A DNA stretch of 35,998 nt. It comes from Gammaproteobacteria bacterium. GTDB lineage: Bacteria > Pseudomonadota > Gammaproteobacteria > SZUA-140. Every line of letters begins with the position of its first letter. Within the stretch, counting starts at the first letter, position 1. Of the stretch, positions 1 through 25,167 are shown in pieces. The notes under the pieces are model-generated. The model had not been told where the DNA came from, did not search any database, and saw only the letters and a program-made list of their open reading frames with translations. A program made the position numbers and the translations under genes. Location of the stretch: positions 1-35,998 of the forward strand of contig JADLET010000145.1 of assembly GCA_020845975.1 (NCBI GenBank), written 5' to 3'.

Positions 1-27
1 AGAAGCTCTGAATACTTCTTGCCTGTC

Positions 28-47
28 ATCCCCGCGCAGGCGGGGAT
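28..47. repeat. Family D hairpin repeat, copy 1
   Basis: Perfect 8-bp inverted repeat (ATCCCCGC, loop GCAG, GCGGGGAT) just upstream of the first gene. A close variant, differing by compensatory A/T for C/G changes at the stem end, sits at 7403-7422, so it is a dispersed element. This short palindrome type is common in intergenic DNA of proteobacteria. Confidence 0.75.
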
Positions 48-79
48 CCAGTGTCTGAGCCCAATCAGGTCCCTTACCC

Positions 80-1642
80 ATGACCGATTCTGAGATGGTT
101 TGCCATATGAATATGGAACGTGCCGGACTTTACCTTACCGTTTTCATGACGGGCGCCGCGGTGATGGTGATCGAGCTGCTCGGGACGCGGCTGATCGCTC
201 CGTTCTACGGCGCGAGTCTGTATGTATGGTCCTCGCTGATCGCGGTCACGATGATCGCGCTCGCCATCGGCTATTTCGCGGGCGGCTGGTGGGCGGATCG
301 CGCGAAGCGCACCGGACTTTCCCTGGTCATTGCGCTCGCCGCACTGCTGACACTCGCGATCCCGTGGATGGTGCGTCCGGTGTTGCTGGCGACCGATCCG
401 CTCGGCCTGCGCGCCGGCGCCTTTGTCAGCGCGCTGGTCCTGTTCACGCCGAGCCTGACGTTGCTCGGTGTAGTGGGGCCGTTTGCCATCAAGCTCGCGA
501 CCTCCCGTCTGGATCGAGTCGGCAGCAGCGCGGGCTCGATCTATGCCGTCAGCACGCTGGGGAGCGTGGTGGGCACGTTGCTGCTCGGATTCTTTCTGTT
601 CCCGCTGGTGGGCTCGCGCGAAGTGCTGATCGGACTCGGCCTCGTGCTGTTTCTGCTGGCGGTGACCCTGTCTGTCTACGAACAGAAGCGGATGAAGCGG
701 AGCCGCGCGATACTGCCATGTGTGCTGTTGGCCGTGGTCGGCATGGCCATGCTGCCGAAGGTCATCGGCGCTGCTCATGTGTACACCGGTGGCGACAGAT
801 TCCAGGTCCGCTTCGAGCGCGAGAGTCTGTATGGCTGGGTGCGGGTTGTCGACGAGCCGGCGCGCGACCTGCGCCTGCTGATGTCCGACGCCTCGGCGAT
901 CGGCGCGGCCCGGATTTCCGATGGTGTGAATCAGCTCACCTACCAGGAGATCGCGAAGTTGATTCCGGCACTGGCGCCCGGGATCCGTCGCGCACTGCTC
1001 GTCGGCCAGGGCGCAGGCCATATGGCGATGACGCTGCGCGACCGCTACGGGATCTCGACCGACACACTGGAGATCGATCCGGCGGTGGCGGAGGCCGCCG
1101 TTGAGTACTTCGGCTTTACTCCCACGGGCGATGCCCGGGTCGGGGACGCGCGCTACGAGATCCGTCAGTTAAAAGGTCCCTACGACCTGGTCATCCTCGA
1201 TTGCTTTACCGGCGGTTCGGAGCCTGCGCACCTGCTGACGGTCGAGGCGCTGTCGCAGTTGCGTGCGCTGATGTCGGAACGCGCCATCCTCGCCCTCAAC
1301 TTCGTGGCGCTGACGGACCATGGACATGATGTAGCGCTCGCCTCCGTCGCGCGCACGCTGGCCCAGGTGTTCGAGCATCAGCAGGTGTTTGTTTCCGAGC
1401 CCGGGCGCGATCTGAACGATTTCGTATTCCTCGCCTCGATCCGCCTCATCGACCTCGAGTCCCCTTCGATCGATCGTGGGCAGGTCGCGTGGCTGAAGAA
1501 CCGGCGCATCGAGGTCGATGCGTCGGAGGGCGTGCCCCTGACGGATAATCTCAATCCGCTGGAGCATCTTCAGGTGCGCAAGGCGGAGCATTATCGCGGC
1601 CTGCAGGTCCAGTGGTTCGGGACCGATCTGCTGTCACCCTGA
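80..1642 (+). CDS. Fused membrane / spermidine synthase-like protein
   Basis: A 520-residue protein. Roughly the first 225 residues are a multi-pass membrane domain with about seven hydrophobic segments, beginning with the family-typical GAAVMVIELLGTRLIAPFYG. The C-terminal half is a Rossmann-type spermidine-synthase-like fold: the nucleotide loop reads LLVGQGAGHMAM, the acidic residues follow in TLEIDPAV, and an LVILDCFTGG strand lies near residue 375. Members are usually annotated as fused MFS/spermidine synthase; real aminopropyltransferase activity is unproven for most, and here GQGAG replaces the usual GGGxG. The start at 80 has only a weak ribosome-binding site; in-frame ATGs at 107 and 113 would leave a tail closer to family norm. 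A short hairpin with a T-run follows the stop, and the next gene is convergent. Confidence 0.85.
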   Translation: MTDSEMVCHMNMERAGLYLTVFMTGAAVMVIELLGTRLIAPFYGASLYVWSSLIAVTMIALAIGYFAGGWWADRAKRTGLSLVIALAALLTLAIPWMVRPVLLATDPLGLRAGAFVSALVLFTPSLTLLGVVGPFAIKLATSRLDRVGSSAGSIYAVSTLGSVVGTLLLGFFLFPLVGSREVLIGLGLVLFLLAVTLSVYEQKRMKRSRAILPCVLLAVVGMAMLPKVIGAAHVYTGGDRFQVRFERESLYGWVRVVDEPARDLRLLMSDASAIGAARISDGVNQLTYQEIAKLIPALAPGIRRALLVGQGAGHMAMTLRDRYGISTDTLEIDPAVAEAAVEYFGFTPTGDARVGDARYEIRQLKGPYDLVILDCFTGGSEPAHLLTVEALSQLRALMSERAILALNFVALTDHGHDVALASVARTLAQVFEHQQVFVSEPGRDLNDFVFLASIRLIDLESPSIDRGQVAWLKNRRIEVDASEGVPLTDNLNPLEHLQVRKAEHYRGLQVQWFGTDLLSP

Positions 1643-15344: not shown

Positions 15345-16247
15345 GTGACAGGAGAGATGGAGCGGGAACTGGCGAATGCCGTCGCGGAGGCTATCAGCGC
15401 GGCCACCGGCGCGACCTTTACCGCGCGGGCGCGGGAAGGCGTCGGAGGCGGATGCATCAATGACGCGTGGCGACTCGATGGTGATGGGCGGAGTTTCTTC
15501 GTCAAGCTGAATGAGCCCGCACGGGAGGCGATGTTCGCCGCCGAGTTCGCCGGGCTGGAGGAGCTGCGCGCGGCAAACGCCGTGCGCGTTCCAATGCCTG
15601 TGTGTCTGGGAGCGACCGGGCGCGCGGCCTTCCTGGTGCTGGAGTGGCTGGAGCTGGGCCGGGGCGAGGGCGCAGGCTACGAACTTCTGGGGCGCCGGCT
15701 CGCGGACCTGCATCGCGTCACGCGCCCCTCCTTCGGCGGGTCGCGCGACAACACGATCGGTTCGACACCGCAGCCCAACCGCGCCGATACAGACTGGGTG
15801 CGGTTCTGGGGTGAGCGGCGGCTGGGCTATCAACTCGAGCTCGCCGCGGCCAATGGGCATCGCGGCCGCCTGCTGCAGCGCGGCGAACACCTGCTGGCGG
15901 TGCTACCCATAATCCTGGCGGGACATGTCCCCGCCCCGGCATTGCTGCACGGCGATCTCTGGTCAGGCAATGTCGCCTTCACCCGCGGCGGCGAGCCGGT
16001 GATCTTCGATCCGGCGGTCTACTACGGCGACCGCGAGACCGATCTCGCGATGACCGAGCTGTTCGGCGGTTTTCCCGCCACCTTCCATGACGCCTACCGC
16101 GAGGCCTGGCCGCTCGATCCCGGCTACGAACTGCGGCGGACGCTCTACAATCTCTACCATGTGCTCAATCACCTTAATCTGTTCGGCGCCGGCTACCGTG
16201 CGCAGGCGGAATCCATGATCGACATGCTGTTGGGGGAGGTGAGCTGA
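15345..16247 (+). CDS. Fructosamine kinase family protein
   Basis: A roughly 300-residue kinase of the fructosamine-3-kinase/YniA family (aminoglycoside-phosphotransferase-like fold). It would phosphorylate ketosamine adducts on glycated amino groups so that they decompose. Motifs: GGGCINDAWRL (N-terminal nucleotide strand), SFFVKLNE with the ATP lysine, LLHGDLWSGNVAF (catalytic Asp and Asn) and VIFDPAVYYGDRETDLAM (metal-binding Asp). In bacteria these enzymes prefer ribulosamines and erythrulosamines, which fits its place after transaldolase (inference). Start is uncertain: GTG at 15345 or ATG at 15357, the latter with GGAG unusually close. A family B repeat sits immediately upstream and may have altered the leader. 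Confidence 0.88.
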   Translation: MTGEMERELANAVAEAISAATGATFTARAREGVGGGCINDAWRLDGDGRSFFVKLNEPAREAMFAAEFAGLEELRAANAVRVPMPVCLGATGRAAFLVLEWLELGRGEGAGYELLGRRLADLHRVTRPSFGGSRDNTIGSTPQPNRADTDWVRFWGERRLGYQLELAAANGHRGRLLQRGEHLLAVLPIILAGHVPAPALLHGDLWSGNVAFTRGGEPVIFDPAVYYGDRETDLAMTELFGGFPATFHDAYREAWPLDPGYELRRTLYNLYHVLNHLNLFGAGYRAQAESMIDMLLGEVS

Positions 16248-16433: not shown

Positions 16434-17216
16434 TTACTTGAAGTCGAGCTGCAGCATCTTGCCGCCGGTCTTGTCCGCCAGCGTCTGGTATTCCCACAGG
16501 GTGGTGGGGTTGGAGCGGCCGATCGGCAGGGTGAACACGGGACTTGGGATGTTCAGGTAGAAAATGCGGTCATCCGAGGGTTCGTCACCGAGCAGCAGGT
16601 AGGCGCCCGGTGTCCTGGCGTTCATGGCGGCCTTGCGGAAGGCGTCGCCGATGGTCTCGTTGGCGCCGATGAAGGGCGCTCCGCGCATGAGCTGGTCGAA
16701 CATCTCACCCATCGAGCCGGTATAGGTATCGGCCTTCTCGTCGGAAAACCAGGTGATCGCGTCGAGGTGCTTGCCGGAACGGATCACGATCACGCGCAGG
16801 ATGGGAATCAGGAAGGACGACAGCCCATGCATGGAGCCTGTGGCGTCGACCACCAGGTGAAGATCCTTGCCGGGCAGGTTGCGCAGGCCGGAAATGAAGA
16901 TGTCGAAATCCTTGCGTCCCTGGCCGCTGTCGAGCTGGGCCGCCTCAAGCGCGCGCTCCATCTGGGCATCGGTACTCATGACGGCCATATCATCGAGTTC
17001 GCGTATCAGCCGTTTACGGTCGGCGTCACTCTGCTGGAGTTCCCGGGCCATCTCCCCGACCTTTTGCTTGAGTTTCGGGGTCTCGTATTCTTCCGCCAGT
17101 CGCGAGGTGATCAGGATCATCACGAACAGGAAAATGAACGTCGCCAGCATGAGCAGCGCCATGTCCGAGAAGCTCTCGTGGATGTTCGTGAAGGTGAATT
17201 TGCGTCTTTCCTTCAT
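16434..17216 (-). CDS. MotB/ExbD-like membrane protein with C-terminal von Willebrand A domain
   Basis: A 260-residue protein with one N-terminal membrane helix (about residues 18-38, SDMALLMLATFIFLFVMILI). An aspartate (D18) stands at the helix start, exactly as in the ion-carrying helix of MotB and ExbD. A coiled coil follows (about 41-78). The rest is a vWA fold rather than the usual peptidoglycan-binding OmpA domain: metal site D124-x-T126-x-S128 in VVDATGSM, a likely T188 (GANET) and acidic residues at 211-216 (DEPSDD). Small, cytoplasm-exposed N-terminus and periplasmic vWA are inferred. It starts 15 bases after the MotA/TolQ-like gene, so the two should form one ion-driven complex. The partner bound by the vWA domain is unknown. 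Confidence 0.82.
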   Translation of the reverse strand: MKERRKFTFTNIHESFSDMALLMLATFIFLFVMILITSRLAEEYETPKLKQKVGEMARELQQSDADRKRLIRELDDMAVMSTDAQMERALEAAQLDSGQGRKDFDIFISGLRNLPGKDLHLVVDATGSMHGLSSFLIPILRVIVIRSGKHLDAITWFSDEKADTYTGSMGEMFDQLMRGAPFIGANETIGDAFRKAAMNARTPGAYLLLGDEPSDDRIFYLNIPSPVFTLPIGRSNPTTLWEYQTLADKTGGKMLQLDFK

Positions 17217-17231
17217 GGTGCGGTCCGCTGC

Positions 17232-18227
17232 TCAGGATTTCGGGCCCATGATGACGTCGCGCAGGCGCTCCCACCAGGATTTGTTGATACGCCGCATCGC
17301 ATTGACCTCGCCTCGCATCATCTCGATGCTGTGTTTGTGCAGGCGGATATGTTCGAGCAGGATCTTGTTTTCATCCTGCGACAGGTCGCGCAGCAGGACG
17401 GCTTCCTCGCGGAACCGGGACATGGTTTCGCGCGACTCGTTGAACGCATGCTGCAGCACTTTGATGCGCAGCCCGAGCGCTTCAATCTGGGTGTCGAGCT
17501 GACGCAGGTCGCGCTGCATCGAGGGTTGCAGGTCGGCGGCGCAATGCACCAGACAGGTCCGCATCACGGCGTCGTACACACTGTTGATGCCGTGCTCGGT
17601 GATCTGGGCGAACACGCGCAGCAGTACGCCGCCGAGCACCGCCCCGAGCAGGGTCGTGTAGAAGGCGGTGCCCATGCCGGCCATGGCCTTGCGCAGGCCG
17701 CTCAGCATCATCTCCGAGTCATGGCCGAGCGCCTCCAGCGATCCGGTCAGGCCGGTGAGCACCAGGGTGAGTCCGACCACGGTGCCGATCAGGCCGAGCG
17801 TGATGAGCAGATTGCCGATGACATCGATCGAATGACTGATGCGCTGGTAGATCGAGAGTTCGCTGGTAAGCAGGGCCTCGGTATCTATGCTGCCATTGCC
17901 GGTTTCCGTCGTCGTCTTGAGCTCGATGAAGAACCTGCCCACGGCGCGCTGCCGGGGGAGGCGATCGATGACTTTAAGGCCCTGGCCTGCGACGCTTTCA
18001 TCCACGCGGTTCGCTACCAGCGCCTCCAGCGTGACCATAATAGTGAGGATAAAGCTGCCGATGAGTCCGAACACGAACAGGCCGATAATCAGCCAGGTGA
18101 TGCGGCTCTGGTCGGAGCGGACGAATTCCCAGACCTCTCCGCCGCGATAGAGGGAGAAATAGGTGATGACGGCGGTAGCGCCCCAGATAATCCACAGCAG
18201 CAGTGTTCGAAAAGGTTTCTGGTTCAT
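17232..18227 (-). CDS. MotA/TolQ/ExbB proton channel family protein
   Basis: A 331-residue protein with four membrane helices (about residues 8-24, 43-66, 136-160, 184-208). The third and fourth helices carry family motifs LLITLGLIGTVVGL and GMGTAFYTTLLGAVLGG, which line the ion path in MotA, TolQ and ExbB. The C-terminal 100 residues are predicted coiled coil (235-315), longer than in TolQ. ATG at 18227 follows AAGG. The downstream gene encodes a MotB/ExbD-like helix plus a vWA domain, so the pair probably forms a 5:2-type stator. Neither TonB/TolA nor flagellar genes are nearby, and Zorya partners ZorC, ZorD or ZorE are absent. Confidence 0.88.
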   Translation of the reverse strand: MNQKPFRTLLLWIIWGATAVITYFSLYRGGEVWEFVRSDQSRITWLIIGLFVFGLIGSFILTIMVTLEALVANRVDESVAGQGLKVIDRLPRQRAVGRFFIELKTTTETGNGSIDTEALLTSELSIYQRISHSIDVIGNLLITLGLIGTVVGLTLVLTGLTGSLEALGHDSEMMLSGLRKAMAGMGTAFYTTLLGAVLGGVLLRVFAQITEHGINSVYDAVMRTCLVHCAADLQPSMQRDLRQLDTQIEALGLRIKVLQHAFNESRETMSRFREEAVLLRDLSQDENKILLEHIRLHKHSIEMMRGEVNAMRRINKSWWERLRDVIMGPKS

Positions 18228-18497
18228 TGTTACCTTACGTCATCGCCATAATGCGTACCTCGGGGGGCCTGCTGCGCGGTGCCTTGAGCGCGCGCAGGCC
18301 AGTCGCCGGACTGAATGGGTCGCGATTCGGGTGAAATGCATGATGAATTGTAATAGAGTTTAACTCCGGACGGGAAACACAGGAATAGCCGCTGTTGGCC
18401 TGTTTCCCCTCCCCCCGTGATCGCCGCATCATCCCGGCGGTCGTCTTGTCTTCACCCCCCTGATTGCCCGGGGCGCCAGACGCGGAGGTGCGTGAGA

Positions 18498-19367
18498 ATG
18501 TCTGCCAGGATCATTCCCGGAGTTGTGCTCGCCGGATGCTGCCTGTTTGCCGCCAGCGGTATCGCCACTGCCGAGGAGGATGTCGCCGCCAGGATCATGC
18601 AGCGTGTCTACGAGGTCTATGGCGGAGACGACAGCTTTTCCCGACTACGGTTCAGCTTTGAGTACGACGGAGGCAAGACCGGGACCCTTGGGCTGGTGAT
18701 GGCCTACAAGCGCTATCCAGCAACGGCCGGGGCGGAATCGAAGGTCGTCATGTTCAATGACTACCCTCCCGAGAAGAAGGATATCGGCTATCTTGGCTGG
18801 TTCTACCGCGTCGAGCAGGAACGGGACGCCGACCAGTGGCTGTATCTGCCTGAGCTCAGGCAGACGCGCAAGCTGACACGCAAGCCGCGTGATTATTCAC
18901 GCACGGAGAAACGCACAGAGGGCGACGAGTTTTCGGTTTCCGAGCTGGACCTGGAGGAGCTGGCACCGCGCGCGCCGGTGCTGGATCGCCATACCCTGCT
19001 CGGCAGCGAGACCCTGGAGGGGCGGGCGGTGTACACCGTGGAGTCCGTGCCGACGGACCCGGACAGCAGCCCCTACGGAAAGCGAATTGCCTGGATCAGC
19101 AAGGACGGGTATCTGCCTTTGCGTGTCGATTGCTATGACCGCGAGGCGCATCTGGTAAAGACCTTGAATTTCACCTGGGCCCAGGTCGACAAGGACTGGG
19201 TATGGGAGCGGGTTATTGCGGTGAACCGGGTCAATGGCAACAAGACACTGCTGGAGCAGAGCGACGTTCTGGTCAACCTCGGCCTGCCGGACGATTTGTT
19301 CGCCAAGCGCGTGCTGGATCAGGGGGCCGACACCTTCGCGCGCAGAATGTCACGCTATGTCCGCTGA
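18498..19367 (+). CDS. Outer membrane lipoprotein-sorting protein (LolA-like)
   Basis: A 289-residue exported protein with a signal peptide (cleavage likely after ATA near residue 25) and a LolA/LolB-like beta-fold. Typical stretches are ADQWLYLPELRQTRKLTRKP, SELDLEELAP and RIAWISKDGYLPLRVDCYDR. Family members are usually encoded beside RND-type lipid exporters and carry hydrophobic cargo in the periplasm; no such exporter is adjacent here. A lipobox-like LAGC occurs at residues 11-14 but the preceding stretch is short, so lipidation is doubtful. ATG at 18498 has a GGAGGTG ribosome-binding site. The 270-base region upstream is a divergent control region shared with the MotA/vWA pair; I see no clear promoter there beyond a weak TACAAT. 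Confidence 0.85.
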   Translation: MSARIIPGVVLAGCCLFAASGIATAEEDVAARIMQRVYEVYGGDDSFSRLRFSFEYDGGKTGTLGLVMAYKRYPATAGAESKVVMFNDYPPEKKDIGYLGWFYRVEQERDADQWLYLPELRQTRKLTRKPRDYSRTEKRTEGDEFSVSELDLEELAPRAPVLDRHTLLGSETLEGRAVYTVESVPTDPDSSPYGKRIAWISKDGYLPLRVDCYDREAHLVKTLNFTWAQVDKDWVWERVIAVNRVNGNKTLLEQSDVLVNLGLPDDLFAKRVLDQGADTFARRMSRYVR

Positions 19368-19911: not shown

Positions 19912-20823
19912 TCACTTCTTGTCACTGGCGCAGCGGAAGCCGAGGTCCTCGAAGCGCGATTCCGGTACCAGATAAAAGCGGTAAGCGGAACGGTAGAAGT
20001 GGCTCATGACGTAGTGGCCGACGCCGCCCCAGCCGCCGCCGCGTGTGACCTTGAAGCGCTCACCGTAATCCTTGGATGGCTGGTCGTTGCCGGGGTAGGG
20101 CTGGTACCAGTCGGAGACCCACTCCATGACATTGCCGGCCATGTCGTCGACGCCGTAGGGCGAGCGGCCCGCCGGCAGTGATCCGACCGGCATCACGCCG
20201 GACTCCTCGCCGCGGCCCGCGTTGACGCGTTCGAGCGACCAGTCGTCGCCCCAGGGGAATTCGCGGCCTTCGGCGCCGCGCGCGGCCTTTTCCCATTCAC
20301 GTTCGGTTGGCAGACGCTTGCCCGCCCAGGCGCAATAGCGGCGCGCGTCTTCCCAGCTCACCCCGCTGACGGGCAGATCTTCCAGTTGGCTGCGTTTGGC
20401 CTCGATCGCATCCAGCAGTGTGTCCTTGTCCAGCATGTGCGTATCGCGGTTCAGGCGGAATGTTTCCGCCGCCAGCTGACGCAGGGTGGCGACCTCGGCG
20501 ACTTCAATAACCGGACGTGTCAGCAGGAAGCCGTTGCCCTGCCATGGATCCGGCAGCCAGTAATTCTCGGCGATCACGAAGGCGCGGTAGTCGGCGTTGG
20601 TGACCTCGAAGCGGTCGATCAGGAAGGCGTCGAGGTGGATCTTTCGCCGCGGGTGCTCATCCAGGTAGAGAGGTTTATTGAGGCCGAGGTCCTGGCTGTC
20701 CGTGCCGGTGTCGTGCGCGTCACTGCCGAACAGAAAGTCGCCGGCCGGTATTTCGATCATCTGGTCCGCCCCGGCGGCCGGGCCGGCAAGCGCAAACAGC
20801 AGCATGAAGAGCGTGCGTTTCAT
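19912..20823 (-). CDS. FGE-sulfatase (SUMF1/EgtB/PvdO) family protein, periplasmic, without the cysteine pair
   Basis: A 303-residue exported protein (signal peptide residues 1-19, LFALAGPAAGA). The rest is a formylglycine-generating-enzyme fold: IEIPAGDFLFGS, DAFLIDRFEVTNADYRAF, RLPTEREWEKAARG, GNVMEWVSDWY and a C-terminal FEDLGFRCAS. At the place where true FGE has a Cys-x4-Cys copper site, this protein reads RGGGWGGVGHYVMSHFYR, with no cysteine, so classical FGE chemistry is unlikely. Its start overlaps the stop of the upstream paralog by 4 bases (ATGA), so the pair is translationally coupled. The open frame extends further upstream to 21228, but that part overlaps the paralog and is a shadow. 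Confidence 0.88.
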   Translation of the reverse strand: MKRTLFMLLFALAGPAAGADQMIEIPAGDFLFGSDAHDTGTDSQDLGLNKPLYLDEHPRRKIHLDAFLIDRFEVTNADYRAFVIAENYWLPDPWQGNGFLLTRPVIEVAEVATLRQLAAETFRLNRDTHMLDKDTLLDAIEAKRSQLEDLPVSGVSWEDARRYCAWAGKRLPTEREWEKAARGAEGREFPWGDDWSLERVNAGRGEESGVMPVGSLPAGRSPYGVDDMAGNVMEWVSDWYQPYPGNDQPSKDYGERFKVTRGGGWGGVGHYVMSHFYRSAYRFYLVPESRFEDLGFRCASDKK

Positions 20824-21857
20824 CGGCTGCCCTCCGCGTCCTTCGCGCAGCGGAAGCCGAAGGAGGAGTTTTTCACGCGCGCATTGAAAAAGCTGCGGTT
20901 GAAGGTGGGAGCGGAGATGCCGCATTTGTAGAACGAGCAGTCCCACCATGAGCCGCCCTTGAGAATCTTGTAGATCTCGCCGAAATTTTCCGATTTCGTG
21001 CTGTTGCCAGGGTGAGGAAGGTACCAGGAAGCGGTCCATTCCCATACGTTGCCCGACATGTCGGCGAGCCCGTAGGGGCTTGCGCCGGCCTTGAAGGCGC
21101 CGACCGGCGTGGTGTCGCCCTCGCGCCCGAGGCTGGCCCAGCGCACCGGGGTGTTGGCGGCGCGGATATTGAATTCGTCGCCCCAGGGAAAGATGCGGGC
21201 ATCCGTCCCGCGCGCCGCCTTTTCCCATTCCTGCTCGGTCGGCAGGCGTTTGCCGGCCCAGGCGCAGTAGTCGCGCGCATCGAACCAGTTGACGAAGGTG
21301 ACCGGATGGTCGGCCTTGCCGCGCGGCGCGACGCGCCTCTCGAAATCATCCGGCGCGCGCCGTCCCGTTGCCTCGATGAATTGCTGATACTGCAGATTGG
21401 TGACTTCGTATCTGTCGATCAGGTAATCGCCGAGGCGCACGGTGTGCCGCGGCCCCTCATCGGCGAGGCGGTCATTGCTGCCCATCTGGAATTCACCGGC
21501 GGGAATGCGCACCATCGGCCCGGGCGCGGCGCCGAATCGCGTACCCTCGTAGTACATCTCGCCGCCCAGGCCGAGGGTGTCGCCATCCGCGCTTGCCGAT
21601 TCAGCGGACTTCGCTCCGGCCAGTGATTTGAGCGGGCCACCACGTTCACCGTTTTCATGACAGGTGGAGCAGCCGCGTTTCAGGTCCAGGCCGGAAAAAC
21701 CGGTCTGCGTGTGGCAGGTGGCGCATTGCTCGATTTCCCGGCTGTGGTGCAGGCTCCTGAGATCGGCCGCGGCCTGTACGGCCGAACCCGCAAACACGCC
21801 GGCGGCGAGCAGCAGACCCGCGGGGATGGCTCGGGTGATGATGGCGCGGAGGTACAT
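20820..21857 (-). CDS. c-type heme segment fused to an FGE-sulfatase domain
   Basis: A 345-residue exported protein. Signal peptide about residues 1-30. Then two c-heme attachment sites, C45-A-T-C-H49 and C63-S-T-C-H67, within a short cytochrome-like segment containing HHSREIEQ. Residues 113-340 form a full FGE/SUMF1-type domain (VRIPAGEFQMGSNDR, YLIDRYEVTNLQYQQF, KRLPTEQEWEKAARG, GNVWEWTASWY, FGFRCAKD). In GGSWWDCSFYKC it keeps C307 and C312 with the C-x4-C spacing of the copper-binding active site of genuine FGE. A heme-FGE fusion suggests an electron-linked periplasmic oxidase or modifying enzyme (inference). No sulfatase gene is in the window. The start at 21857 was chosen for the signal peptide; it lacks a clear ribosome-binding site, and 21905 is an alternative. 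Confidence 0.83.
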   Translation of the reverse strand: MYLRAIITRAIPAGLLLAAGVFAGSAVQAAADLRSLHHSREIEQCATCHTQTGFSGLDLKRGCSTCHENGERGGPLKSLAGAKSAESASADGDTLGLGGEMYYEGTRFGAAPGPMVRIPAGEFQMGSNDRLADEGPRHTVRLGDYLIDRYEVTNLQYQQFIEATGRRAPDDFERRVAPRGKADHPVTFVNWFDARDYCAWAGKRLPTEQEWEKAARGTDARIFPWGDEFNIRAANTPVRWASLGREGDTTPVGAFKAGASPYGLADMSGNVWEWTASWYLPHPGNSTKSENFGEIYKILKGGSWWDCSFYKCGISAPTFNRSFFNARVKNSSFGFRCAKDAEGSR

Positions 21858-21908
21858 GGGTGGAGAAATAATAACACTTAAAACGCAGGGCTGAGTCAGG
21901 ATCATAAA

Positions 21909-22030
21909 CGTGATGGGCGATGGGTAATGGGTGATTAAACACATTGATAGTCAAGTTCAAGGTACGCTTCACTCTTTACCCATCACCCATCACACATCAC
22001 CCATCACGTCCTTATTTCTCACCGAGTCCT
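21909..22030. repeat. Family A repeat, copy 3
   Basis: Left half CGTGATGGGCGATGGGTAAT, GGGTGATTAA; right half TTTACCCATCACCCATCAC, ACATCACCCATCACG, then TCCTTATTTCTCACC and GAGTCCTCGG. Unlike most copies it sits in the 5' region between two divergent genes, just upstream of a TACAAT promoter element for the ABC exporter operon. Confidence 0.8.
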
Positions 22031-22087: not shown

Positions 22088-22798
<711 letters not shown>

Positions 22799-22800
22799 CC

Positions 22801-25167
22801 ATGCGCGCGCTGGATCGCAAGCTGTGGCGCGACCTCTGGCTCATGAAGGGCCAGGCGGTGGCAATCGGCCTCGTGATCCTGTGCGGCGTGGCGACATACA
22901 TCATGTTCATCGCCATCCTCGACAGCCTGCGCGCCACGCGCGCCGACTATTATTCCCACAACCGTTTCGCGGACGTGTTCGTGAGTCTGAAGCGCGCGCC
23001 GGAAGGCCTGCGCCGCCAGATCGAGGCGATCCCGGGCGTGACCCGGGTCGAGACCCGGGTGGTGGCCGGGGTGAATATCGACGTCGAGGGTTTCGCCGAA
23101 CCGGTGACCGGGCTCATCGTCGCGGTGCCGGATGAAGGCTACCAGCCGCTCAACACGCTCTATATGCGCAGCGGCCGCTATGTGGAGCCGTATCGCGCCG
23201 ATGAGGTCATTGTCAGCGAGGCCTTCGCCGAGGCCCATGGTTTCACGCCGGGAGACCGGCTCGCCGCGGTCATCAACGGGCGGCGCCAGTCTCTGACCAT
23301 CGTCGGCACGGCGCTGTCCCCCGAATATATCCATCAACTGCGTCCGGGCGGCATATTCCCCGATTACAAGCGCTATGGCGTCATGTGGATGGGGCGCAAG
23401 GCGCTTGGCAATGCGCTCGACATGGACGGCGCCTTCAATGACATCGTGCTGGAGCTGGCCGTCGGCGCCAGCGAGCACGACGTCATTGACCGCCTCGACC
23501 GTCTGCTCGACCGCTACGGCGGACTCGGCGCCTACGGGCGCGAGGACCAGCGTTCGCACCGGTTCCTCGACGAGGAGTTCGGTCAGCTCGACATGATGTC
23601 GAAGATGTTCCCGGTCATCTTCCTCGGCGTCGCCGCCTTCCTGCTCAACGTGGTGATCACGCGCCTGGTCGGTCTGCAACGCGAACAGATCGCGATCATG
23701 AAGGCCTTTGGGTATGGCAATGCCACCGTGACCTGGCATTACCTCAAGCTGGTGCTGGTGGTGGTGCTGTTCGGCGTGGCTGGCGGTATCGCGTCCGGCG
23801 CCTGGCTTGCGCACCTGATGGGCACTATATATATGGAGTTCTTCCGCTTTCCCTATCTCACCTTCACCCTCAATGCACATGTGCTGAGTGAGGCGACACT
23901 GGCCAGCATGGGTGCGGGTGCGCTTGGCACCCTGCTGGCGGTACGCCGCGCGGCGGCGCTCAAGCCAGCCGAGGCGATGCAGCCGGCGCCTCCCGCGCGC
24001 TACCGCGAGTCGTGGCCGGAGCGGCTGGGTTTGCGGCGCTGGCTGTCGCCGTCGAACCGGATGATCCTGCGCCACATTGGCCGGCGTCCGTTCAAGTCCG
24101 CGGTGACGGTATGCGGCATTGCCGTCGCCTGCGGGATCACCATGACCGGACATTTCCAGAAGGATACGGTCGGTTACATGCTGGACGTGCAATATGGCAT
24201 GTCGCAGCGCGAGGATATTTCGCTGGTCTTTACCGAGCCGACCTCCTACCGCGCCCGGTACGAATTGGCGGCCCTGCCGGGGGTGCGCCGGGTCGAGGTG
24301 CAGCGCAGCGTTCCGGTCGAGCTGCGCAATGGACACCTCAGCTATCGCACCGCCATCCGGGGCATGCAGCCGGGCGGCGATCTGCAACGCCTGCTCGATG
24401 CGGAACTCCGGCCGATTGAGCTGCCATCCTCGGGGGTGATCCTGACCGACTATCTGGCCGAGATGCTCGGCGTTCGCCCGGGCGACCGTCTTACCGTGGA
24501 AGTGCTCGAAGGGGGGCGCCCGGTGCGTGAGGCGATCGTGGCCGGCGTCGTCAAGGAATACCTCGGCGTGTCCGCCTATATGGAGCTCGGCGCGCTCAAT
24601 CGTTTCATGCGCGAGGGACCGGCGATCTCGGGCGCCTGGCTCGCTGTGAGTGACGGCGACGAGCTGGCGCGGCTGTACCGCGCACTGAAGGACATGCCGC
24701 GCGTGGCCGGGGTGGCGCTGCGCCGGCAGGAGATCCGGAACTTCAACAAGACGATGAACGAGTCGCTGCTGTTCTACACCTTCGTAGCAATGATCTTCTC
24801 GGTCATCATTGCCTTCGGGGTGGTGTACAACAGCGCGCGTATCGCGCTGACCGAGCGCAGCCGCGAGCTGGCCAGCCTGCGTGTGCTCGGCTTCACGCGC
24901 GGCGAGATCTCGTACATCCTGCTCGGCGAGCTCGGACTGCTCACCGTGATCGCGCTGCCGCTCGGCCTGTACACCGGACGTCTGCTGTGCTGGATGATCG
25001 CCCATAATCTGCAGAACGACCTGTATCGCATTCCGCTGATCCTGCAGCCCAATACCTACGCCTTCGCGGTCACCGTAGTGATCGCCGCGGCGGTGGTGTC
25101 CGGCCTGGTGGTGCGCCGCCGGCTCGATCAGCTGGACCTGATCGGGGTGCTGAAGACAAAAGAATAG
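22801..25167 (+). CDS. ABC transporter permease with two FtsX domains
   Basis: A 788-residue permease. It has an N-terminal helix (about residues 17-41), a periplasmic MacB-like domain, a first FtsX block with helices around 270-390 (VAAFLLNVVITRLVGLQREQ), a second helix near residue 430-450, a second periplasmic domain, and a final FtsX block of three helices (about 660-780, IAFGVVYNSARIALTERSRE). Ten-or-so-helix duplicated FtsX permeases of this type work with an ATPase and an HlyD-like adaptor in export. It overlaps nothing but starts 2 bases after the ATPase gene. Its stop codon TAG is the beginning of a family A repeat. The very long open frame on the opposite strand is a codon-bias shadow. 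Confidence 0.92.
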   Translation: MRALDRKLWRDLWLMKGQAVAIGLVILCGVATYIMFIAILDSLRATRADYYSHNRFADVFVSLKRAPEGLRRQIEAIPGVTRVETRVVAGVNIDVEGFAEPVTGLIVAVPDEGYQPLNTLYMRSGRYVEPYRADEVIVSEAFAEAHGFTPGDRLAAVINGRRQSLTIVGTALSPEYIHQLRPGGIFPDYKRYGVMWMGRKALGNALDMDGAFNDIVLELAVGASEHDVIDRLDRLLDRYGGLGAYGREDQRSHRFLDEEFGQLDMMSKMFPVIFLGVAAFLLNVVITRLVGLQREQIAIMKAFGYGNATVTWHYLKLVLVVVLFGVAGGIASGAWLAHLMGTIYMEFFRFPYLTFTLNAHVLSEATLASMGAGALGTLLAVRRAAALKPAEAMQPAPPARYRESWPERLGLRRWLSPSNRMILRHIGRRPFKSAVTVCGIAVACGITMTGHFQKDTVGYMLDVQYGMSQREDISLVFTEPTSYRARYELAALPGVRRVEVQRSVPVELRNGHLSYRTAIRGMQPGGDLQRLLDAELRPIELPSSGVILTDYLAEMLGVRPGDRLTVEVLEGGRPVREAIVAGVVKEYLGVSAYMELGALNRFMREGPAISGAWLAVSDGDELARLYRALKDMPRVAGVALRRQEIRNFNKTMNESLLFYTFVAMIFSVIIAFGVVYNSARIALTERSRELASLRVLGFTRGEISYILLGELGLLTVIALPLGLYTGRLLCWMIAHNLQNDLYRIPLILQPNTYAFAVTVVIAAAVVSGLVVRRRLDQLDLIGVLKTKE

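Follow-up and report, generated by a model that had tools for sequence, protein, structure and literature searches.

A two-gene proton-channel and vWA-domain unit that co-occurs with a divergent cbb3-type oxidase

What could a proton motor of the MotA/TolQ type drive if the subunit inserted into its pore ended in a vWA domain? This question is raised by two minus-strand genes, A and B (Table 1), located in the window, that is, in the whole stretch of 35,998 nucleotides that was analysed. An earlier note based on the sequence had described them as a two-gene unit, and both genes proved to be real and conserved as proteins over large distances; a chance pair of open reading frames was ruled out by the conservation of A and B in two bacterial classes. 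The intergenic gap has a median of 10 bases across 68 loci. The genes flanking the pair in the window are ordinary, and the absence of flagellar, Tol, Ton and Zorya genes alongside it, also pointed out in that note, was confirmed. Together with an ABC transporter ATPase and an FtsX-type permease (window 22088-25167, plus strand) the LolA-like gene makes up a lipoprotein-sorting-like set. The upstream member of the FGE-like tandem has two CxxCH haem motifs ahead of its FGE domain.

Table 1. Positions of the gene pair, its parts and neighbours in the window, and of two vWA-motor cassettes from other loci.
Feature	Position	Strand	Details
Gene A, MotA/TolQ/ExbB-type proton-channel subunit	17232..18227	(-)	331 aa
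A, TM1	residues ~9-27		
A, TM2	residues ~44-66		followed by a short cytoplasmic part
A, TM3	residues ~133-162		
A, TM4	residues ~184-212		
A, C-terminal helical tail	residues 237-327		
A stop to B start	17217..17231	(-)	15-base gap; transcription-unit-like pair
Gene B, trans-pore helix + linker + vWA domain	16434..17216	(-)	260 aa
B, MotB/ExbD-like transmembrane helix with D18	17103..17174	(-)	residues 15-38; D18 codon 17165-17163
B, helical, probably coiled-coil linker	16941..17102	(-)	residues 39-92; model helices H12-79, H82-92
B, vWA domain	16437..16919	(-)	residues 100-260; MIDAS D124-A-T126-G-S128, T188, D211
Fructosamine kinase	15345-16247	+	flanks pair, downstream side, opposite strand
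LolA-like protein	18417-19367	+	flanks pair, upstream side, opposite strand
Two FGE/sulfatase-modifying-factor-like proteins	19912-21228 and 20820-21944	(-)	tandem
Typical heterologous-pair vWA motor	L188:1613-4472		TolQ-like gene, then two different TPH-vWA genes
Another vWA-motor branch	L187:753-5783		TolQ-like, gene seemingly with FHA domain, two distinct vWA genes whose products have membrane helices

Conservation was estimated from 69 B and 65 A sequences of the two classes. Gene A matches the Pfam family MotA_ExbB (PF01618) above its curated cut-off (3.3e-6), and in its AlphaFold model (pLDDT 79.5) four long helices of membrane-spanning length are complemented by a C-terminal one of ~80 residues. 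Among solved structures Foldseek placed ExbB, TolQ, ZorA and PomA on top, with weak scores (best E 1.7e-3, probability 1.0). Threonines T143, T149 and T192 are invariant in 65/65 relatives. The assignment of A to the MotA/TolQ-type channel proteins, made earlier from four helices, the motifs GLIGTVVGL and GMGTAFYTTLLG and a long C-terminal coiled coil, is sustained, and both motifs are present. Profile searches of the PDB with A and B as queries returned only coiled-coil or very weak ZorB matches. In one MAG gene A is split by a frameshift (L002:6961-7982), which may be a sequencing error or the mark of a pseudogene, while B is intact.

For B the match to MotB_plug (Pfam) remained below the cut-off (0.0096), and the aspartate expected in a MotB/ExbD-like helix, D18, is kept in 68/68 relatives. 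None of the Pfam vWA models detects this domain in the B sequence of the window, and VWA_CoxE matches one relative at 0.034. In the AlphaFold model (pLDDT 78) a long helix extending to residue 79 is followed by two short helices and an alternating beta/alpha domain, for which the best Foldseek matches are VWF A2, NorD of the NorQD complex, TFIIH, anthrax-toxin receptors and Ro60 (best E 5.2e-5, probability 1.0; NorD ranks third). The vWA fold with D-x-T-x-S, predicted in the note, is thus supported by the model, as is its placement where MotB or ZorB has a peptidoglycan-binding domain. Beyond this motif, the remaining two MIDAS positions, T188 and D211, are also present. Residues D124, S128, E187 and D211 are kept in 69/69 relatives; every one of the 69 has T or S at position 126, and 65/69 have T or S at position 188. 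Given this conservation, the MIDAS is complete and under selection, and the same holds for the proton path. The basic N-terminus of B (MKERRK) suggests, from its charge, that this end is cytoplasmic and that the vWA domain resides in the periplasm. Past the membrane the modelled linker has ~41 residues and the two short helices; the reach of ~60-80 angstroms, as estimated from helix length, would suit a partner in the inner membrane better than one in the outer membrane.

The opinion that no known motor has this layout had to be abandoned, since TolQ-like genes with trans-pore-helix (TPH) vWA partners, an Idiomarina-type family of mostly heterologous pairs, were described in 2025 without a function (PMC12204202). 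Oxidases are not mentioned there, and no further paper that brings these terms together in this sense turned up in a full-text search of the open-access literature. The sample contains one cassette with the layout of that paper (L188, genome G044). In hhalign comparisons its TolQ-like gene scores 98.9% against A (E 1.9e-17) and its vWA genes score 93.6-94.7% against B, so the former is clearly homologous to A and the latter are probably homologous to B. The pair thus appears to be a single-vWA branch of the recently described kind, a distant branch of TPH-vWA motors that has one vWA gene where two are usual. The L187 cassette is more remote, and its channel gene has no clear relationship to A.

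B is conserved at 45-78% identity in ~70 loci, and A directly precedes it in each case where the contig extends far enough. All loci have a single B after A, and no obligate third gene was found across them. In the window's class the pair is present in 33/369 genomes (34 before removal of a spurious partial hit in G228), and none of the better-assembled genomes in the window's family lacks it; its named carriers are Gammaproteobacteria MAGs, including Chromatiaceae and Candidatus Tenderia. Weak B-profile matches in G228, G455 and G472 belong to different MotB-like proteins with OmpA-type ends. The phylum sample gave 43 genomes with the pair, from three families (f207, f227, f240) of another class, which we infer to be Zetaproteobacteria, in consistence with the two cbb3 oxidase forms, ‘proximal’ and ‘distal’, reported for them (PMC7029218). 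Genomes of this second class have up to four copies (two to four B copies each in G441, G406, G416 and G477), which suggests specialised paralogues with more than one task. Plasmid and phage searches gave no match to the pair, and its interpretation as a mobile element was rejected on this ground.

In the window's class the pair occupies two recurrent neighbourhoods: one consists of ordinary genes, among them those for fructosamine kinase, DUF1820 and transaldolase, and the other is the operon of a divergent cbb3-type oxidase. A small lipoprotein of family c10 (L122:9338-9784) is encoded beside B in 12 loci, on the same strand and directly after B in L080 and L116, and is a possible accessory partner of B; as an obligate third component it was rejected, because the window's own genome offers at best a weak match (1.6e-8), located elsewhere (C191). 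In the second class two globin-like genes are often found near the pair (L101, L103, L105, L106, L109, L112), and most of these loci also have a gene for a ferredoxin-type reductase.

The divergent oxidase was scored in the same 369 genomes by a match to its CcoO-like subunit at 1e-40 or better and found in 33 of them. The pair and the oxidase were both registered in 28 genomes, the pair only in 5, the oxidase only in 5 and neither in 331 (Fisher test, 6e-32, uncorrected by species tree), that is, the oxidase accompanies the pair in 28/33 cases and occurs in 5/336 genomes lacking it. By families, the number of which was set at about 180 for this test, the counts were 10, 4, 3 and 163, respectively (~4e-11, likewise uncorrected by tree). 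A link to cbb3 oxidases in general was rejected, since the pair was present in only 2/193 genomes whose CcoO is solely of the ordinary type. The second class gave 39 genomes with both, 4 with the pair only, 2 with the oxidase only and 352 with neither, these numbers being confounded by their origin from one clade. Exceptions are found on both sides: G028, G054, G131, G247 and G344 have the oxidase without the pair, and the operon looks complete in the three pair-less genomes where it was read (L138, L144, L145), while G094, G177 and G322 have the pair without any CcoO match.

In 11 of the 28 genomes with both, representing six families of the window's class, the pair and the oxidase are no more than 14 kb apart, in two arrangements. 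The pair is placed either at the head of the operon, divergently from its cytochrome c4 gene (L086-L088, L090, L091, L096), or next to ccoG at the operon's tail (L084, L095, L097, L127, L130, L131, L133). In three loci of the second class ccoG lies directly upstream of A, and the tree groups these ccoG genes with those of oxidase operons; in G409 the operon itself is devoid of ccoG, which stands beside A (L106 versus L150), while in G416 and G477 the gene upstream of A is an extra copy (L110, L111). Since head, tail and ccoG-A arrangements all occur, the linkage has been kept through several rearrangements. The search for conserved neighbours suggested in the note revealed no obligate third gene and an oxidase operon or ccoG recurring in part of the loci, and the supposition that the pair is self-contained holds for its own operon but misses the strong link at the genome level. 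This specific co-occurrence and the recurrent linkage are new observations.

The oxidase operon is common to the two classes and comprises ~20 strictly ordered genes (L137-L156, e.g. L149:1079-15644). Besides a CcoN-like protein and a CcoO-like one whose N-terminal part is long, they encode c-type cytochromes, several small membrane subunits, an FGE-like protein as a fixed member, a thioredoxin-like lipoprotein, a FixH-like protein and a divergent CcoG; further products are a membrane protein resembling spermidine synthase and several small subunits. CcoG is a cupric reductase that takes part in cbb3 assembly (PMC8475189). Aligned with CcoN of the solved cbb3 structure (3mk7) at 2e-60, the CcoN-like protein can be seen to retain the tyrosine of helix VII and the histidines of CuB, and therefore looks like an oxygen reductase rather than an NO reductase. 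The oxidase probably belongs to the ‘distal’ cbb3 clade. In the window's own genome the oxidase is on contig C93 (G000) and the pair on a different one. A FixG_C search of this genome gave no match, although the operon has a divergent CcoG, the model being too narrow. The FGE-like gene 20820-21944 of the window was rejected as a part of the operon, as the operon's own FGE gene is still in place in the same genome (L137) and the gene in the window is its paralogue.

Since the pair is found almost only where the divergent oxidase is, it may help to build or to service this enzyme. In motors of the MotA/ExbB type the B dimer rotates in the pentamer of A as protons pass the aspartate of B. By analogy, A may form a pentamer of the MotA/TolQ type with two B helices in its pore, and protons passing D18 and the threonine ring would turn or twist the B dimer. 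The paired MIDAS vWA domains would then move on their linker just above the inner membrane, at its predicted periplasmic side, and could grip a protein partner via the MIDAS metal. The most likely partner, presumably in direct contact, would be the divergent cbb3-type oxidase or its assembly intermediate, which the motor might pull or twist during assembly or during the loading of metal or haem, as NorQ-NorD does for NO reductase. NorQ-NorD is powered by ATP, and NorD acts in the cytoplasm. In this system nitric oxide reductase, which is a haem-copper enzyme, receives its iron through the twisting of a vWA protein (PMC13036017). We tentatively suggest, as the most economical reading and the likeliest of those considered, though at somewhat less than even odds, that the pair may be a proton-powered and periplasm-facing counterpart of NorQ-NorD that remodels or matures the divergent oxidase. 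Against this speak the genomes with only one of the two, their location on different contigs in the window's own genome, the other recurrent neighbours of the pair and the copy numbers of up to four. A rotary motor of the MotA type, driven by proton motive force and turning a MIDAS vWA dimer in order to remodel or metallate this probably ‘distal’ cbb3 from the periplasm, is conceivable but more doubtful.

Other readings of the same data can be considered. The pair may be a trans-envelope force transducer, where the rotating B dimer makes the vWA domains pull a partner in the peptidoglycan or outer membrane, and its link to the oxidase then reflects a shared lifestyle of low-oxygen lithotrophs, some of them iron oxidizers. 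Such a function was proposed for TPH-vWA proteins in general (PMC12204202), to whose type the pair appears homologous, and would suit two genes that form a unit of their own and need no third one. Yet the modelled linker seems too short for the outer membrane, the distance from D18 to the MIDAS being held at 102-130 residues, and a shared lifestyle would not predict that the pair lies near oxidase genes and ccoG time and again; this reading is rather unlikely. It can also be imagined that the pair senses or uses proton motive force for some other periplasmic task, such as cell-wall or cytochrome handling, and that its proximity to the oxidase is a trace of ancestral gene order; several families have indeed kept the pair in a fixed order with fructosamine kinase and further ordinary genes, which suggests one ancestral locus. 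This appears improbable in view of linkage that survives at least three different arrangements and of the specific match in presence and absence. A role of an ExbBD-like energizer importing copper or another metal as the oxidase cofactor, in analogy with TonB-dependent receptors and with the vWA domain in place of TonB, would agree with the closeness of ccoG, a member of the cupric-reductase family, and with ExbB and TolQ as the best structural matches of A, but no receptor, TonB-like or transporter gene recurs beside the pair, and ordinary cbb3 oxidases also need copper, yet the pair does not track them, so we consider it very unlikely. A Zorya-like anti-phage motor or its remnant is hardly credible and was rejected as a defence system, since A, with weak PADLOC matches mostly to ZorA (best 3.1e-6; the helix of B weakly matches ZorB at 0.0028), is far under the NCBIfam ZorA cut-offs (18.3 bits versus 100 and 500), no genes of ZorC, ZorD or ZorE type are among the annotated neighbours in the window and ~70 related loci, and the pair is family-wide, placed in housekeeping neighbourhoods and absent from plasmids and phages.

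If the pair does serve the oxidase, vWA-bearing proton motors, named in 2025 without a function, acquire for this branch a first testable client, and this client is a particular oxygen-reducing enzyme of bacteria that are microaerophilic and lithotrophic. Assembly of respiratory complexes would then be added to motility, envelope pulling, import and defence as tasks of rotary proton motors, and the vWA-remodelling principle of AAA+ systems would have a second source of power.

With MotAB, TolQR and ExbBD the pair shares the channel motifs, the threonine ring and the aspartate of the B helix, differing from them in the C-terminal domain of B and in having no partner operon. ZorA-ZorB of Zorya is similar in the MotA-like subunit with a C-terminal helical tail, in the MotB-like helix and in weak profile matches, whereas the pair has a vWA domain instead of a peptidoglycan-binding one, a short tail of A, no effector genes and a vertical, core-like distribution. 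NorQ-NorD and other MoxR AAA+-vWA systems have in common with it a MIDAS vWA domain, moved by an energy source there and presumably in the pair too, and an association with the haem-copper oxidase superfamily, and NorD resembles B. However, they are powered by an AAA+ ATPase, while the pair would be powered by a proton channel, and no NorQ or AAA+ MoxR gene was seen beside it across the loci, its partner being the proton-channel gene; the predicted periplasmic, membrane-anchored position of the vWA domain of B, as opposed to cytoplasmic NorD, counts against this parallel. The closest likeness is to TPH-vWA motors, which also combine a TolQ-like gene without tolR or exbD and a vWA protein with a trans-pore helix and a conserved aspartate. 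They have mostly, not universally, heterologous vWA pairs, while the single B presumably forms a homodimer; compared with the L188 type, the tail of A is longer (331 versus 264 aa) and B is shorter (260 versus 335-349 aa). What distinguishes the pair from the motors of that paper is its link to the divergent cbb3-type oxidase.
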